From Nonomuraea sp. PA05 (lineage in GTDB: Bacteria; Actinomycetota; Actinomycetes; Streptosporangiales; Streptosporangiaceae), in NCBI RefSeq assembly GCF_008086045.1, contig NZ_VSEY01000047.1, positions 1 through 64,000 of the forward strand: a DNA stretch of 64,000 bases, in the 5' to 3' direction. Made by a program: the position numbers and the translations under genes. Below the pieces are notes generated by a model. That model searched no databases and was not told the origin of the DNA. It saw nothing but the letters and a program-made list of their open reading frames with translations. Shown piece by piece: positions 41,942-47,157 of the stretch. Position 1 is the first letter of the stretch; the number at the start of each line of letters is the position of its first letter.

Positions 41942-42418
41942 GTGAGGCCCGTGTGGTACGCGTTCATCGACGTCGCGGTGCTAGCCGTCGTCGCGGTCGT
42001 CGCCCGGCGCCGTCTCGTCGTGGTCCAGGTGAGCGGTGTGAGCATGTCGCCGACCTACCGTCCGGGTGACCGGGTGCTGGTCCGCCGGACCGGCGCGGTG
42101 CGGCGGGGCCAGGTGGTGGTCTTCGAGTCGACGCGGCCGTCGGGGTGGGGCACGGGCCCGCCGGCGCCTCCGTGGGCGATCAAGCGGGTGACCGCGCTGC
42201 CGGGCGACCCCGTTCCGGCCGACGTGGCGGAGGCGGTGGCGGCGAGGCCCGGCGCGTGCGTGCCCGAGGGTGCGCTCGTGGTGGTGGGGGACGGCACGTC
42301 GAGCGCCGACTCACGGGTGTACGGCTACCTGCCGGCCGACCGGCTGCTCGGCGTGGTGGTACGCAGGCTGTCCCCCGGCCCGCCGGCTGCTGAGCGGTCG
42401 GGAGAAACGGCCTCGTAG
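41942..42418 (+). CDS. S26-family signal peptidase
   Basis: 158 aa, starting at the GTG at 41942. One N-terminal membrane segment (IDVAVLAVVAVVA) is followed by the serine motif SGVSMSPTYRPGDRVLV, in which the Ser before MSPT is the nucleophile, and IKRVTALPGD, containing the catalytic Lys. The C-terminal GDGTSSADSRVYGYLP box is also present. It is a short, single-pass form such as those linked to specialised substrates rather than the housekeeping enzyme. Its 3' end overlaps the convergent ABC exporter gene by 94 bp. Place beside the Cys-rich peptide operon suggests that it cuts that precursor. Confidence 0.85.
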   Translation: MRPVWYAFIDVAVLAVVAVVARRRLVVVQVSGVSMSPTYRPGDRVLVRRTGAVRRGQVVVFESTRPSGWGTGPPAPPWAIKRVTALPGDPVPADVAEAVAARPGACVPEGALVVVGDGTSSADSRVYGYLPADRLLGVVVRRLSPGPPAAERSGETAS

Positions 42419-44217
42419 CCGTCGGGGGATCCGGTCGCGTAGCCGTCGGCCTGCAGCGTGAACAGGCGGGCGTACTCGCCGCCCATGGCCATGAGCTCGT
42501 CGTGCGTGCCGCGTTCCGCGATCCGCCCCTCGCTCAGCACCACGATGAGGTCGGCGGCGCGCACGGTGCCCAGCCGGTGCGAGATGAGCACGCTCGTGCG
42601 CTCGCCCCGGTAGGCCCGCAGGCTGGTGTGCACCTCGTGCTCGGCCTGGGCGTCGAGACCCGAGCTGGGCTCGTCCAGGATGAGCAGGTCCTGGCGCTGC
42701 CGCAAAAACGCGCGGGCCAGCGCCAGGCGCTGCCACTGCCCGCCGGACAGGGAGACCCCGGCCTGCTCGTCGCGGTCGCCGAACAGGCGGCTGAGCATGG
42801 TGTCGTACCCGCGCGGCAGCGCGGTGATCGTCTCGTGGACGCCCGCGCGGCGGGCCGAGTCGCGGACCTGCTCGCCGTCCGCCGTCAGGTCGCCCAGCCC
42901 GATGTTCTCGGCGGCGGTGAGGTCGTAGTCCATGTAGTCCTGGAACACCGCGCCGATCCGGCCGCGCAGGTCGGCCGGGTCCGCGTCGCGCAGGTCCACC
43001 CCGTCCCAGGTGAGGCGTCCGCGGATCGGGTCGTACATCCGGCACAGCAGCTTGACCAGGGTGCTCTTGCCCGCGCCGTTCACCCCGACGAGGGCCACCG
43101 TCCGGCCGGAGGGGATGAACAGGTCCACCCCGCGCAGGATCCAGGGGTGCTCCTCGCTGTAGCGGAACCACACGTCGCGCAGCTCGATCCCGTCGCGCAG
43201 CGCGGGCAGCGCGGCGGGCTCGCGCGGAACGGGCAGGTCGGGCTCGGCCGCCACCACGTCCGTGTAGTGGCCGAACATCAGCAGCGCGTTGTGCACGTCC
43301 GCCCACTGGCTGACGATCGCGGTCAGTGCCGCCTGCACGCCCGCGACGGCGGCGACGAAGACCGTCACGTCGCCCACGCTGATGCCGCCAGAGGCGGCGC
43401 TGAGGATGGCCCACAGCAGCCCGCCGGCCGCGACGACGCTCCCGAGCAGCGCCATCACGCCCTGGCTGCGCAGGGCACGGCGGTCCACGTCGCGTTCGGC
43501 CCGGTTGATGCCGCGCACCTCGTCAAGCATCCGGTTGCGCAGGTGGTCGCCCAGGCCGAACAGCCGCACCTCCTTGGCCGCCTCCGGCCGGGTGAGCAGG
43601 TCGCCGTAGAACACCTGGCGCCGCATGGCGGGCGTGATGTCCCACATGACCTCGGCGCGCTTGCGGCTGAGCACGAGCTGGATGCGTACGGAGGGCAGCG
43701 CGGCGACGACGATGACGGCGACCATGAGCGGGTTGACGGCGGCCAGGGTGACGGTGAAGCCCGCGAGGGTGATGACCGCCTGGCCGATCGCCAGCGCGCC
43801 GACGACCAGGCGGTCCGGCGCGCTGTGACTCGACTCGTACGCCAGCCGCAGCGTGTCGTGGAAGCCCGGCGTCTCGAACCGGCTGAGCCCGGGATGGCGG
43901 TTGACCGCCCGGAACAGCCGGTCGTAGATGAGCAGGCAGATCGACCTGCGCAGTTGCGCCTTGGCGTAGTCGGACACGTGCGGCAGCACGATGACGGCCA
44001 GGCCGCTGAGGGCGAGCCCGCACGCCGCCGGCGCGAGCGCGGCGAACCCGTCGCCCCTGACGAGCGCGTCGAGGACGAGTTTCGTCAGCCAGGCGGTCGC
44101 GACCGGCGCCAGCCCGCCGAGTACGCCGAGGACGGCCGCGCCGACGGCGGCCACCGGGTGGGCCTTCCAGGCGAGGGCGGCGGCGACGCGGATCCGGCCG
44201 GGCATGGGGGTCGCCAT
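42325..44217 (-). CDS. ABC exporter, fused membrane and ATPase domains
   Basis: 630 aa. Residues 1-330 are a six-helix exporter membrane domain; residues about 355-585 are the ATPase with Walker A GVNGAGKST, Q-loop AVFQDYMDYDL, signature LSGGQWQRLALARAF, Walker B LLILDEPSSGLD and the switch His in ISHRLGTV. There is no N-terminal C39 peptidase domain, so it cannot cut a leader itself. It is the last gene of the operon precursor peptide-mauE-tlpA-exporter (5 bp after tlpA). It probably exports the Cys-rich peptide. Confidence 0.92.
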   Translation of the reverse strand: MATPMPGRIRVAAALAWKAHPVAAVGAAVLGVLGGLAPVATAWLTKLVLDALVRGDGFAALAPAACGLALSGLAVIVLPHVSDYAKAQLRRSICLLIYDRLFRAVNRHPGLSRFETPGFHDTLRLAYESSHSAPDRLVVGALAIGQAVITLAGFTVTLAAVNPLMVAVIVVAALPSVRIQLVLSRKRAEVMWDITPAMRRQVFYGDLLTRPEAAKEVRLFGLGDHLRNRMLDEVRGINRAERDVDRRALRSQGVMALLGSVVAAGGLLWAILSAASGGISVGDVTVFVAAVAGVQAALTAIVSQWADVHNALLMFGHYTDVVAAEPDLPVPREPAALPALRDGIELRDVWFRYSEEHPWILRGVDLFIPSGRTVALVGVNGAGKSTLVKLLCRMYDPIRGRLTWDGVDLRDADPADLRGRIGAVFQDYMDYDLTAAENIGLGDLTADGEQVRDSARRAGVHETITALPRGYDTMLSRLFGDRDEQAGVSLSGGQWQRLALARAFLRQRQDLLILDEPSSGLDAQAEHEVHTSLRAYRGERTSVLISHRLGTVRAADLIVVLSEGRIAERGTHDELMAMGGEYARLFTLQADGYATGSPDGYEAVSPDRSAAGGPGDSLRTTTPSSRSAGR

Positions 44218-44222
44218 GCCGG

Positions 44223-44759
44223 TCAGACGCTCGCGGGGATCGGGAGCTCGTCCGTGGAGTGCGCCGACGCCGTCACGGCGCCCGCGCCGTCCACGAGGTA
44301 GAAGCCGGGGAACGGCGGGCGTCCGAAGGCCGTGTACAGCCGGCCGTCGCGCTCCTCGGTGACCACGGTCGCCAGGGCGGCGAGGGCGGTGGTGAACGTC
44401 TCCGCCTTCGGCCCGCCGCCCACGACCAGCGCCAGGACACGGCCGCGGCCCAGGTGGCGGACCCGCTCGGCGAACTCGGGCAGGTGTTCGTCGCAGGCGG
44501 AGCAGTCGGTGGAGAACATGCCGACGACGGTCGTGCCGCCTGCGGCTTCGAAGGTGGCCCGGCTGACGGCCGCGCCGGTGGTGTCCGTCGCGGTGAAGTC
44601 AGGGAGTCTGGTGCCCGGCGGGGTGAAGGCGGGCGGCGAGACCACGGCCCGCAGGACGTTCGCGTGCTCGCGCAGGCGGCGGACCACGGCCAGCAGCAGC
44701 AACAGGTTGACGGCGCTCAGCAGGCCGACGAAGACGACGGCGGCCACGAGGAAGGACAT
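44223..44759 (-). CDS. TlpA/MauD-like membrane-anchored thiol oxidoreductase
   Basis: 178 aa with AAGGGA six bases before the ATG. One N-terminal membrane helix (LVAAVVFVGLLSAVNLLLLLAVV) is followed by a thioredoxin fold with the CxxC active site in MFSTDCSACDEHLPEF near residue 87, and the cis-Pro region PPFPGFYLVDGAG near 150. The domain would lie outside the membrane. Its neighbour MauE is the usual membrane electron partner of MauD-type proteins. Here the pair lies between a Cys-rich peptide gene and an exporter, so forming disulfides in that peptide is the likely task. Confidence 0.88.
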   Translation of the reverse strand: MSFLVAAVVFVGLLSAVNLLLLLAVVRRLREHANVLRAVVSPPAFTPPGTRLPDFTATDTTGAAVSRATFEAAGGTTVVGMFSTDCSACDEHLPEFAERVRHLGRGRVLALVVGGGPKAETFTTALAALATVVTEERDGRLYTAFGRPPFPGFYLVDGAGAVTASAHSTDELPIPASV

Positions 44760-44775
44760 CGGCGTCCCTTACGGT

Positions 44776-45333
44776 TCAGCGAGGCGGGGGTGGGACCGGG
44801 TTCAGGAGGTCGGCGAGGTCGTCGGTGAAGACGGCGAACAGCGCGATCAGGCCGCCGGCGGCGAGTGCCAGGACCGCTCCGGCGGGGTGCGTCTGCGCGC
44901 CCGCCTGCGCGGACGAGGCCTGTGCGAACGAGGCTGCCAGGCCGGTGACGGCCACCGCGATCAGGACGGCGTTGCGGACGAGGTGCCGGCTGCTCAACGG
45001 CGCCGACGAGGTGCTGAAGCAGTTGCAGGGGGTTCGGCTGCCCGAGCGGAGCGCGTACCGGATGCCGAGGGAGAAGGCCAGCAGCACGGCACCGGCCAGG
45101 CCCAGCCCGGCCGGTGCTGTGAACTCCGTCGTCAGCAGCAGGACGGTGGCCGATTCAACGGCGACCACCGTGGCGGGCAGCGCGGCCTGAACCCGGCCGC
45201 GCGGCAGCGGGACGAGCGCCGGCACCGATCGCCGGAACGCCTCGAACGCCTCCCGCCCGCGCACCTTGCCGGCCACCGCCGCCAGGAAGACGATCCCCAG
45301 GGCGCAGCGGGCGGCCAGCGCGACGTACTCCAT
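44776..45333 (-). CDS. MauE/DoxX-family redox membrane protein
   Basis: 185 aa with four hydrophobic segments (LGIVFLAAVAGKV, TVVAVESATVLLLTT, LGLAGAVLLAFSLGI, AGAVLALAAGGLIALF) and the paired-Cys motif TPCNCF near residue 105 typical of MauE. MauE proteins pass electrons to or from thioredoxin-like partners such as MauD. It follows the Cys-rich peptide gene by 25 bp and precedes the TlpA-like gene by 16 bp. The methylamine dehydrogenase genes themselves are absent, so the pair serves another client here. Confidence 0.88.
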   Translation of the reverse strand: MEYVALAARCALGIVFLAAVAGKVRGREAFEAFRRSVPALVPLPRGRVQAALPATVVAVESATVLLLTTEFTAPAGLGLAGAVLLAFSLGIRYALRSGSRTPCNCFSTSSAPLSSRHLVRNAVLIAVAVTGLAASFAQASSAQAGAQTHPAGAVLALAAGGLIALFAVFTDDLADLLNPVPPPPR

Positions 45334-45358
45334 GCCGCTGATCCGTTCGGCCGGAGGC

Positions 45359-45499
45359 TCAGCGGCAGTAGGTCTTGCCGGCGTAGATGCAGCAGCGGAT
45401 GCCGGTCGAGGTCCACCAGCAGGGCTCGGCCTCGGCGGTGGTGGTGGGCAGCAACCTGCTCAGCAGCCGATCGCTCATCTCGTTGAGTGCACGGAACAC
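45359..45499 (-). CDS. 46-aa Cys-rich peptide, probable precursor
   Basis: The GTG at 45499 has a perfect AGGAGG six bases upstream. The product starts FRALNEMSDRLLSRLLP (after the initiator), an amphipathic leader without a Sec-type hydrophobic core, then TTTAEA, and ends in a 22-residue part with PCWWTSTG, IRCCIYAG and KTYCR: four cysteines at 27, 36, 37 and 45. AEA just before the Cys-rich part fits an A-x-A processing site. As first gene of an operon with MauE, a TlpA-like protein and an exporter, it looks like the precursor of a small two-disulfide peptide. Bioactivity is unknown. Confidence 0.75.
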   Translation of the reverse strand: MFRALNEMSDRLLSRLLPTTTAEAEPCWWTSTGIRCCIYAGKTYCR

Positions 45500-45633
45500 A
45501 GGGATCCTCCTCTTGTGCGAGCCGGCGGTGGGGGAATGCCAGCTAAAGGCCGACATACGCGATTTGGGTGATCAGCGCCGCCGACACCTGGACAATAACC
45601 ACGGATGATCAACTGAAGTAAGCAGTCGGGGCC

Positions 45634-45667
45634 GACAGCAAGCTGCAATGCCGTGCAGCTTGCTGTC
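45634..45667. promoter_or_regulatory. Perfect 13-bp inverted repeat between peptide operon and regulator
   Basis: Arms GACAGCAAGCTGC (45634-45646) and GCAGCTTGCTGTC (45655-45667) are exact complements with an 8-nt centre. The element is 50 bp before the LuxR-type gene and 135 bp before the divergent peptide gene, so it can serve both as an operator. A transcript hairpin is a less likely alternative. Confidence 0.8.
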
Positions 45668-45717
45668 ACAGGCGCACCACCAGCCGCGCCGGCCCCTTTC
45701 GCTACATCGGGAGCCAC

Positions 45718-46644
45718 ATGAGCCTCAGCAGTCTCGGACTGACCGACTTCGAGGAGATCGTTTACCACGACCTCCTGTGCGGCCGCGAAACGACGGCGTG
45801 CGACCCGGACGGCCTGCGAGCCGCGCTGCAGCGGCTCTCGGCGCTCGGCCTCATCCGCTTCGACCCTGCGGGCCGGCCCGTCGCCGTCGAGCCGGAGATC
45901 GGGATCAGCCGCCTCATCCGGCGGCGGCTGCTGGAGACGAACGCCGAACAGCGCCGCATCTCGGCGGCGTGGGAGGCGGTGCACCTGCTGAGCGCGCAAC
46001 AGCGCGGGCCCGACCGCACGGTCGCCGTCGAGCAGATCGACGGCGCCGACCGGATCAACGAACGCATCTGGTCACTGGCGCTCGACGCGCAGGAGGTGCT
46101 GGCCATGCAGCCAGAACGCTACCAGCCGTGCCTCGGCAGGCTGCCCGTCCACCTCCAGCGGCTCGGGGAGGGCGCCCGCTGGCGCACCATCGTCTCCCGG
46201 CAGAGCCTGCTCGACCCGGAGCTCATGGAGTACTGCGTCACGCTGCACCGCGCCGGCGACCACCACCGGCTCGTCGACGACGACGGGCAGCAGATGGTGA
46301 TCGTCGACCGTTCGGTGGTCTTCGTCCCCAGCGAGCCCGGCGGCGGCGAGCGGAGCGCGTTGATGATCTCGCAGGCGGGGGTCGTGGCGACGATGGCGGA
46401 CCTGTTCGAGCGCGTCTGGGCCAACGCGCAGGACCTCGAACCCCGCGACGCGCCCGACCTGACCATGCGCGAGCGGCGGGTGCTGTATCTGCTGGCCGGC
46501 ACCCGTAAGGACGAGGTGGCGGCCAGGGAGATGGGGGTGAGTCTGCGGACGTACCGGCGGCACGTGGCCGAGCTGCTCGAACGGCTCGGCGCCGCCAATC
46601 GGTTCCAGGGGGCTCTGCTCGCCAAGCAGCAGGGGTGGATCTGA
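45718..46644 (+). CDS. LuxR-type regulator (TrmB-like N-terminus)
   Basis: 308 aa with GGGAG five bases before the ATG. The N-terminus (LGLTDFEEIVYHDLLCG, then LRAALQRLSALGLIRFD) resembles a TrmB/winged-helix part; the middle has a sensor-like domain; the C-terminus is a LuxR/NarL helix-turn-helix (LTMRERRVLYLLAGTRKDEVAAREMGV in part, then SLRTYRRHVAELLERLG). This architecture is common in actinomycete cluster-situated regulators. It is divergent from the Cys-rich peptide operon with a perfect inverted repeat between, so it most likely controls that operon. Confidence 0.85.
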   Translation: MSLSSLGLTDFEEIVYHDLLCGRETTACDPDGLRAALQRLSALGLIRFDPAGRPVAVEPEIGISRLIRRRLLETNAEQRRISAAWEAVHLLSAQQRGPDRTVAVEQIDGADRINERIWSLALDAQEVLAMQPERYQPCLGRLPVHLQRLGEGARWRTIVSRQSLLDPELMEYCVTLHRAGDHHRLVDDDGQQMVIVDRSVVFVPSEPGGGERSALMISQAGVVATMADLFERVWANAQDLEPRDAPDLTMRERRVLYLLAGTRKDEVAAREMGVSLRTYRRHVAELLERLGAANRFQGALLAKQQGWI

Positions 46645-46674: not shown

Positions 46675-47157
46675 ATGGTGGTGCTCGGTGGCGCGCTGGC
46701 CACGATGACGCTGGTGATGCGGGCCGACGAACGCACGTCCGTCGTCCGCGTCATCAAGCAGGTCGGCGCCGGTCAGCCCTTCGGCCCCGACGCGCTGCAG
46801 GAGGCGCGCGTCGCCGACGACGGAGCCGCGTACTGGCCCTGGCCGGAGCGCGAGAAGGTGGCGGCGGCCGTGGCGACGGTCACGGTGCTGCCGGGCACGT
46901 TGCTCACCTGGCCGATGATCACGGGTGGTGACGGCGGTGCGGTCGCGGGGCGGGCGGTCAGGGTGGGGCTGGCGCTCAAGCCCGGCCAGGCGCCCTATGA
47001 CCTGCAGCGGGGGGAGCGGGTTCAGCTCATCCACGTGCCAGGCCGCAGGCAGGCTTCCGACGTGCCGGTTCTGGTGGCGGAGGAGGCGATCGTGGACGGC
47101 GTTAGCTACACGTCCGGGTCGGCCGATGTGGCATCGCCCGGGCATGCCGCGCTGTAA
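46675..47157 (+). CDS. SAF-domain protein, possibly N-terminally shortened
   Basis: 160 aa from the ATG at 46675, without a clear SD; the frame is closed by a stop at 46648. It starts in the middle of what would be the membrane helix (VVLGGALATMTLVMRADE). An SAF-like region follows: VIKQVGAGQPFGPDALQEARV and VTVLPGTLLTWPMI, then VRVGLALKPGQAPYDLQRGERVQLI. SAF proteins occur in pilus assembly (CpaB-like) and other envelope roles. It lies 30 bp after the LuxR-type gene on the same strand, perhaps co-transcribed. Confidence 0.65.
   Translation: MVVLGGALATMTLVMRADERTSVVRVIKQVGAGQPFGPDALQEARVADDGAAYWPWPEREKVAAAVATVTVLPGTLLTWPMITGGDGGAVAGRAVRVGLALKPGQAPYDLQRGERVQLIHVPGRRQASDVPVLVAEEAIVDGVSYTSGSADVASPGHAAL

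Follow-up and report, generated by a model that had tools for sequence, protein, structure and literature searches.

A short cysteine-rich peptide gene of Nonomuraea sp. PA05 and its probable place in a large actinomycete family of leader-guided, disulfide-rich secreted peptides

Introduction

In Nonomuraea sp. PA05 a gene for a small Cys-rich peptide heads a row of genes for a MauE-family protein, a TlpA-like protein and an ABC exporter, which raises the question of whether these genes together make, oxidise, cut and export one secreted peptide. A sequence-only reading of the window (the whole 64,000-nucleotide stretch analysed, positions 1 to 64,000 of contig NZ_VSEY01000047.1) had proposed such a system as a local candidate. 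All the parts that it claimed were confirmed at their positions; the system proved to be a class-wide family instead of a local one. Sequence comparison gives a probability of about 0.8 that the window system belongs to a large group of secreted peptides in actinomycetes, guided by a leader and rich in disulfides.

Results

Gene organization of the locus

The peptide, MauE, TlpA-like and ABC genes are located in one tight operon: they are separated, in this order, by 25, 16 and 5 bases only (Table 1). The S26 gene converges on the ABC gene, their 3' ends overlapping by 94 bases, and the LuxR-type gene is divergent, both as previously placed. The 46-residue precursor with its strong Shine-Dalgarno sequence and the 22-residue tail with four Cys were likewise borne out; an alternative, longer reading of the precursor from an upstream ATG (65 aa) lacks the AGGAGG of the GTG start. 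A Pfam scan of nine chosen neighbouring ORFs found no lanthipeptide, lasso or radical-SAM families, and no C39 peptidase was present among the Pfam matches of the exporter, in agreement with the sequence-only reading on both counts.

Table 1. Features of the peptide locus, with positions in the window.
Feature	Position	Strand	Evidence
Precursor peptide gene, 46 aa, GTG start	45359..45499	-	profile of 33 precursors, own one included: E 1.1e-11 in own genome
Leader MFRALNEMSDRLLSRLLPTTTAEA, A-x-A site at its end	45428..45499	-	family consensus D(-15) R(-14) P(-7) A(-3) A(-1), 178 precursors
Core EPCWWTSTGIRCCIYAGKTYCR, 22 residues, four Cys, C-x8-CC-x7-C	45362..45427	-	spacing recurs in other Nonomuraea cores
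Shine-Dalgarno AGGAGG, six bases 5' of GTG	45506..45511	-	sequence
MauE-family membrane protein	44776..45333	-	PF07291 79.6 bits
TlpA/ResA-like thioredoxin-fold protein, N-terminal membrane anchor	44223..44759	-	PF00578 32 bits
ABC exporter, permease and ATPase, without C39 peptidase domain	42325..44217	-	PF00005 101 bits
S26 signal-peptidase-like protease, single membrane anchor	41942..42418	+	PF10502 71 bits
LuxR-type (GerE) regulator, divergent	45718..46644	+	PF00196 25.3 bits
Perfect inverted repeat GACAGCAAGCTGCA-n6-TGCAGCTTGCTGTC, peptide-regulator interval, possible operator	45634..45667	.	sequence

The precursor peptide and its orthologue

The orthologue in Nonomuraea gerenzanensis has an identical core (22 of 22 residues, one synonymous codon change), and its leader carries five synonymous and two non-synonymous codon changes; the surrounding 1.1 kb of DNA shows 88% identity, and indels lie on both sides of the precursor gene. 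No precursor match was obtained in a triplet-shuffled control of 80 loci. A chance ORF is ruled out by this control together with the conserved core. The C-x8-CC-x7-C spacing was also found in two other Nonomuraea cores (that of locus L119 and the first of L116).

The precursor is labelled "hypothetical protein" in both annotated records examined with features. The window peptide gave a single Pfam match, under the cut-off (E 0.22), none in NCBIfam and no solved relative (best E 0.58); a search for a named family with 10 other precursors in Pfam and with 33 in NCBIfam yielded only weak, scattered matches. A single-sequence model of the lone precursor showed short strands, with a pLDDT of about 87-90 for residues 31-46, and no structural match, and was given no weight here. 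The highest 19-residue hydropathy of the window precursor was 0.23, and no Sec-type hydrophobic signal-peptide core was found in it.

A family with a constant leader and variable cores

In total, 178 related precursors were collected, after two apparent false matches (L134 and L137) had been dropped; the named carriers belong to 19 genera. By sequence, the small window gene appears to be one of a large, almost undescribed actinomycete family of short Cys-rich peptides, whose members share a leader, a likely cutting site, and a set of genes for oxidation, cutting and export, with highly diverse active ends.

The common leader follows the pattern ..L-G/A-D-R-L-L..L-V-P-x3-A-x-A; it is amphipathic, has no Sec-type hydrophobic core and ends in a conserved P-x3-A-x-A junction. 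The AEA at which the leader had been proposed to end corresponds to a family-wide A-x-A pattern at -3 and -1: Ala occupies -1 in 176 of 178 precursors, and Ala or Val occupies -3 in 177, counts that lean towards the pattern, since the site was looked for no more than four residues away from its expected place and small residues were preferred. Ungapped identity among leaders was 0.38 against 0.09 after shuffling (60 of the 178 sampled), while gapped identity among cores was 0.32 against 0.30 (60 dissimilar cores, of which 30 were shuffled). With a gene-encoded precursor, a conserved leader and a variable core, the family resembles the RiPPs in the broad sense and may belong to them.

A precursor search across the phylum gave matches in three of 296 genomes, namely the window's own, G056 and G713; the last match, partial and inside a 469-aa frame, is probably due to chance.

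Co-occurrence of the precursor with the module

Loci were collected starting either from MauE or from the precursor, and the module was counted as present when at least two of the TlpA, ABC and S26 genes were found. In 80 MauE loci of named genomes (14 of them overlapping the Nonomuraea set), 68 had the module, and all 68 had a precursor, against 2 of the 12 others. The corresponding figures for 60 Nonomuraea MauE loci were 45 of 46 and 4 of 14, values that, like the other counts in this genus, are partly circular because the search profile was built from Nonomuraea precursors adjoining MauE. Locus L048 contains MauE, ABC and S26 genes and no precursor. A small Cys-rich ORF thus recurs at this position, and sets of the machinery genes do not occur equally without it, the two outcomes on which the earlier proposal depended.

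Starting from the precursor in 40 genomes of other genera (9 loci overlapping the named set), the module was found at 38 loci and MauE at 36. At 48 further places (47 in Nonomuraea, and G056) the module was found in 39; in the other nine, some of which are cut by contig ends and two of which are the apparent false matches L134 and L137, TlpA, ABC and S26 genes were all absent within about 6 kb. Of 36 Nonomuraea genomes, 32 gave strong MauE matches (E < 1e-8), and exactly these 32 also contained precursors (E up to 1e-3). Three of the remaining four had no MauE match and one, G024, only weak ones; none of the four had a precursor.

The possibility that MauE and TlpA form a general extracytoplasmic redox pair with small ORFs as accidental neighbours is negligible: 10 of the 80 named MauE loci do have neither a precursor nor two module genes, but the search from the precursor in other genera, the shuffled control and the core conserved in N. 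gerenzanensis already contradict it.

Among 163 distinct ABC homologues with a precursor within 4.5 kb, MauE was within 125 cassettes and missing near 38. In correction of the earlier proposal, MauE is optional, TlpA and ABC being the steadier partners. S26 was missing near 15 of the 163; in eight of these cases the stretch contained an S26 gene farther off, and in seven it contained none. The presence of TlpA followed the Cys load: 154 of 155 cassettes with at least five Cys had it, against four of eight with four (p 1.2e-5, uncorrected for kinship). Neither TlpA nor MauE was found within 4.5 kb in four four-Cys cassettes (L101, L105, L116 and L119), whose cores include the closest to that of the window apart from N. 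gerenzanensis, so neither protein is an absolute requirement in cis.

The MauE, TlpA-like and S26 proteins

The window MauE belongs to its Pfam family (79.6 bits against a PF07291 gathering cut-off of 27). Residues K23, E60, C103, C105 and F106 were invariant in 30 homologues found regardless of these residues; a further set of 40, mostly picked by the motif itself, agreed on Cys103-x-Cys105. The AlphaFold model had a mean pLDDT of 92.8. No sequence relative was found in the PDB and no solved fold by Foldseek with the model (E up to 0.001), searches that neither support nor exclude a DsbB/VKOR-like fold.

The TlpA-like protein matches PF00578 (32 bits). The MauD model (TIGR02661) reached only 12.9 of the 188.6 bits of its cut-off (E 0.058). 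The protein has a TM-like stretch at 8-26 and a C86-S-A-C89 motif with a conserved P151; in the largest TlpA cluster these two Cys and the Pro are invariant (90 of 90 aligned members). Its best solved relative was ResA (E 0.0014). Because this nearest solved relative is a reductase, the role of the protein could be isomerisation rather than oxidation.

The S26 protein is a member of signal peptidase I (TIGR02227, 67.2 bits against a cut-off of 47) and matches solved enzymes of that family. Ser34 and Lys81, which we take to be the catalytic dyad, were present in 73 of 73 aligned homologues.

Discussion

A possible pathway

The gene set is consistent with a pathway in which the leader would be recognised by the ABC exporter and the reduced precursor carried across the membrane. 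The membrane-anchored S26 protein would then cut outside, after A-x-A (AEA in the window peptide), in place of the C39-domain step of double-glycine bacteriocins. The membrane-anchored TlpA-like protein may make or reshuffle disulfides, and the C-x-C pair of MauE may re-oxidise or re-reduce it. The predicted window product is a 22-residue peptide with two disulfides, for which a monoisotopic mass of 2592.117 Da was computed.

Constant leader and machinery with free-running cores fit a weapon or a signal under diversifying pressure. From the cationic cores (median charge +2) and the precursor arrays we infer, and favour, an antimicrobial directed against related bacteria.

A secreted signal

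The same machinery could instead deliver a pheromone for the neighbouring regulator, which we hold to be possible though improbable. Regulators do lie near the precursor in many loci: of 189 loci, 72 have a BTAD-type regulator and 16 a response-regulator-like gene. Divergent cores would suit private signals, and the window itself has the LuxR-type gene with the perfect inverted repeat, which is conserved in N. gerenzanensis and is the only place in the window within three mismatches of its inner part. The control gene proposed earlier is present and divergent, but it is local, having been found by tblastn in one of 60 Nonomuraea loci, and the BTAD type is the commoner neighbour. Against a pheromone, a widely shared sensor gene is absent, a kinase-like gene (named by eye) being present in six of 189 loci, and the seven precursors beside one module in locus L282 and the 98 distinct Cys spacings among 178 cores exceed the need of a single signal.

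The state of the cysteines

The Cys residues could also be metal-binding thiols, or be kept reduced by TlpA and MauE for an unlinked modification. ResA and TlpA relatives are reductases, and both TlpA and MauE can be missing from four-Cys cassettes. This explanation is nevertheless quite unlikely. The number of Cys is even in 172 of 178 cores (odd in six) and in 73 of 79 dissimilar cores, which fits pairing. With at least five Cys the figure is 164 of 170 cores; among the remaining short ORFs of these loci it is 188 of 596 at the same threshold and 718 of 1126 with at least four Cys. The many spacings are unlike one metal site, and no further modifying gene was widely shared among the gene clusters of the 189 loci, where after ABC, MauE, TlpA, S26 and BTAD regulators the next cluster occurred in only 16.

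A lanthipeptide- or sactipeptide-like RiPP whose enzyme is encoded elsewhere in the genome is very improbable. Ser/Thr and Cys are present in the cores, and modifying enzymes encoded at a distance occur in some RiPPs. However, Ser and Thr together account for only 14% of core residues, and a dedicated lanthipeptide, lasso or sactipeptide enzyme was found neither in the nine neighbouring ORFs scanned nor among clusters common to many of the 189 loci.

Relation to known systems

Double-glycine bacteriocins are exported by ABC transporters with C39 peptidase domains, which remove their leaders. The window cassette resembles them in leader-guided ABC export with leader removal, and differs in having no C39 domain, an A-x-A rather than a GG/GA junction and a separate S26 enzyme.

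Only one earlier mention of the gene set was found in open-licence literature, judged by its listings and with subscription journals outside the search: decRiPPter reported three mauE candidate families, one also with mauD, among 42 predictions in Streptomyces (PMC7794033). Their predicted precursors have at least eight Cys, and the authors suggest that the mau genes modify them (PMC7794033). The likeness to the window lies in mauE and a Cys-rich precursor; in the part of the description drawn on here there is no follow-up, common leader, A-x-A site or S26/ABC rule (PMC7794033). Compared by description, these families are likely the same family; the window precursor has four Cys only, and since 78 of 178 precursors have at least eight core Cys, the published families may be a subset.

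According to the same source, citing van der Palen 1997, MauE and MauD serve the disulfide-bearing small subunit in methylamine dehydrogenase maturation (PMC7794033). In the window the MauD model barely matches (E 0.058) and, unlike that subunit, the presumed substrate is a short peptide with a leader, served by an ABC exporter and an S26 enzyme of its own. MauE and TlpA proteins would thereby gain a use outside methylamine metabolism.

We lean towards the view that actinomycetes hold a general platform for Cys-bridged miniproteins, distinct from every named RiPP class, and with similar leaning regard it as the equivalent, in bacteria, of the conotoxin or defensin superfamilies. Leader and module would accept almost any core, which would have let the cores spread over at least 98 Cys spacings. 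What was a vague hint from genome mining becomes a family that can be defined and searched for by its precise leader, its predicted cleavage site and its genes. Should the machinery accept foreign cores, it would also offer a natural means of producing disulfide-rich peptides.

Actifensins of Actinomyces, which have three disulfides, are similarly actinobacterial; they combine a conserved leader with diverse cores, occur in arrays of as many as seven copies and have a LuxR regulator. They differ in a G-X-E leader end, a subtilisin-like protease and several ABC genes, and MauE, TlpA and S26 are not mentioned in the cluster description consulted (PMC6989792). The Staphylococcus RiPP TMcin, as described in the portion of the report used here, is a tested model of the same logic: a dedicated CxxC oxidoreductase makes its disulfide, and it has a membrane leader protease and an ABC exporter (PMC13252029). 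TMcin differs in its DsbA-family oxidoreductase, site-2-type metalloprotease, separate ATPase and permease, and transmembrane precursor with one disulfide (PMC13252029).

The peptide locus of Nonomuraea sp. PA05

The window genome contained one precursor and one TlpA of the cassette type (E up to 1e-3). The closest orthologue found, in N. gerenzanensis, keeps the peptide-MauE-TlpA-ABC order, the converging S26 gene and the inverted repeat, and its 22-residue core is identical to that of the window. The inner part of the repeat, a possible operator, is matched exactly in N. gerenzanensis and nowhere else among the 304 loci, copies of the same place excepted.

Features of the peptide locus and its surroundings
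Feature	Position	Strand	Remarks
Precursor peptide gene	45359-45499	minus	46 codons, GTG start; AGGAGG six bases upstream of start
MauE gene	25 bases after peptide gene	minus	
TlpA-like protein gene	16 bases after MauE gene	minus	
ABC exporter gene	5 bases after TlpA-like gene	minus	
S26 peptidase gene			converges on exporter gene, overlapping it by 94 bases
LuxR-type regulator gene			divergent from peptide gene
Inverted repeat, perfect, 14 bases	45634-45667		GACAGCAAGCTGCA-n6-TGCAGCTTGCTGTC; between the divergent peptide and LuxR-type genes
160-aa ORF	46675-47157		downstream of LuxR-type gene; no Pfam or NCBIfam match

Linkage of precursor and module

MauE was detected in 35 of 59 relatives. 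The sequence-only reading had proposed a search for short Cys-rich ORFs upstream of MauE-TlpA-ABC sets; such ORFs, with a common leader, were found to adjoin MauE at most of 60 loci (the best 60 of 87 listed matches, the window's own and genome G056 set aside; at most 12.5 kb per locus). A profile of 33 precursors from these loci (A1), applied to whole genomes at E up to 1e-3, matched 32/36 genomes of Nonomuraea, 34/100 of the family, 25/394 of the class and 3/296 of the phylum, the window genome included in each. Three locus sets (60 plus the window, 48 and 80) yielded 180 distinct precursors, reduced to 178 when L134 and L137 were removed as unsupported.

The module was scored as present when at least two of TlpA, ABC and S26 were found. 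At the 60 Nonomuraea loci, module and precursor occurred together in 45, neither in 10, precursor only in 4 and module only in 1 (L048). The corresponding numbers were 68, 10, 2 and 0 for 80 loci of named genomes, picked by the MauE motif PCRCFGAS, 14 of which fall on loci of the 60. Starting from the precursor, the module was found at 39 of 48 additional loci (47 of them from Nonomuraea and the other from G056; one falls on the 60) and in 38 of 40 genomes outside Nonomuraea (one locus each, 9 on named loci; drawn from the 43 non-Nonomuraea genomes besides G056 that the profile matched in the family and class scans, with G279, G500 and G503 omitted).

Taking one cassette per exporter gave 163 distinct cassettes; within 4.5 kb, 158 of them had TlpA, 148 had S26 and 125 had MauE. 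Of the 15 with no S26 in this range, 8 have one farther away.

Leader, junction and core

Counted from the presumed cut, the leader carries D at -15 (154/178), R at -14 (149/178) and P at -7 (170/178). The junction was located near the profile's proline, favouring small residues at -3 and -1, so that its counts (A or V at -3 in 177/178, A at -1 in 176/178) are biased towards the pattern; the near-constant Ala is not forced by this rule. A-x-A is the -3/-1 pattern of signal peptidases. The typical cassette has its own S26 enzyme, with the catalytic Ser/Lys pair intact in 73/73 aligned sequences. No Sec-like hydrophobic stretch was seen in the window leader, which would make the ABC protein the natural export route.

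Cores are 22 residues upward (median 38.5), with 18% Cys, a median charge of +2 and 98 different Cys spacings. The Cys number is even in 172 of 178. L282 (G476, contig 28) combines seven different precursors, six consecutive upstream and one downstream, with a single TlpA-ABC-S26-MauE module.

Redox partners and Cys number

Both Cys and a proline of TlpA were kept in 90/90 aligned sequences, and the C-x-C of MauE in 30/30. Where the core has at least five Cys, TlpA accompanied 154 of 155 cassettes; where it has four, 4 of 8. The weight of this comparison is limited by kinship among the four four-Cys cassettes that lack TlpA. Three four-Cys cassettes retain both TlpA and MauE: that of the window, the orthologous one of N. 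gerenzanensis, and L283. At L101, L105, L116 and L119, ABC and S26 follow a four-Cys precursor but neither TlpA nor MauE lies within 4.5 kb, and these include the cores next closest to the window's after N. gerenzanensis. The pattern fits a helper that gains importance as pairing becomes harder, or one provided by another cassette of the same genome.

Relation to described families

The decRiPPter paper lists three Streptomyces candidate families that carry mauE and whose precursors contain 8 or more Cys (PMC7794033); its passages on these families mention no leader rule and no S26-TlpA-ABC module. Among the open-licence papers listed, no other was found to name this gene set. These families being the one precedent found, we call the product a probable disulfide-type RiPP that has a leader, a cleavage step and an oxidation set of its own. 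The sequences show that the family exists and is conserved, that precursor and module are linked, that Cys numbers are nearly always even and that the catalytic residues are intact; disulfides, cut site, export and all product biology are predicted.

Isolated components and plasmid-borne cassettes

MauE without precursor, TlpA, ABC or S26 (L035, L066, L068, L071, L072 and others) suggests a second role for this protein; some of these loci adjoin a ribulose-phosphate-epimerase-like gene (named by eye). Related six-Cys precursors at L128, L129, L132 and L133, with leaders of ..LIDRALALV-V/L-PE..ASA or AAA type, had none of TlpA, ABC and S26 within the stretch and may be an orphan branch served in trans.

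Two cassettes, L303 and L304, are carried by Streptomyces plasmids, with an integrase nearby in one and IS transposases in the other; the precursors are annotated 'hypothetical protein' (WP_072488714.1 and WP_266738437.1).
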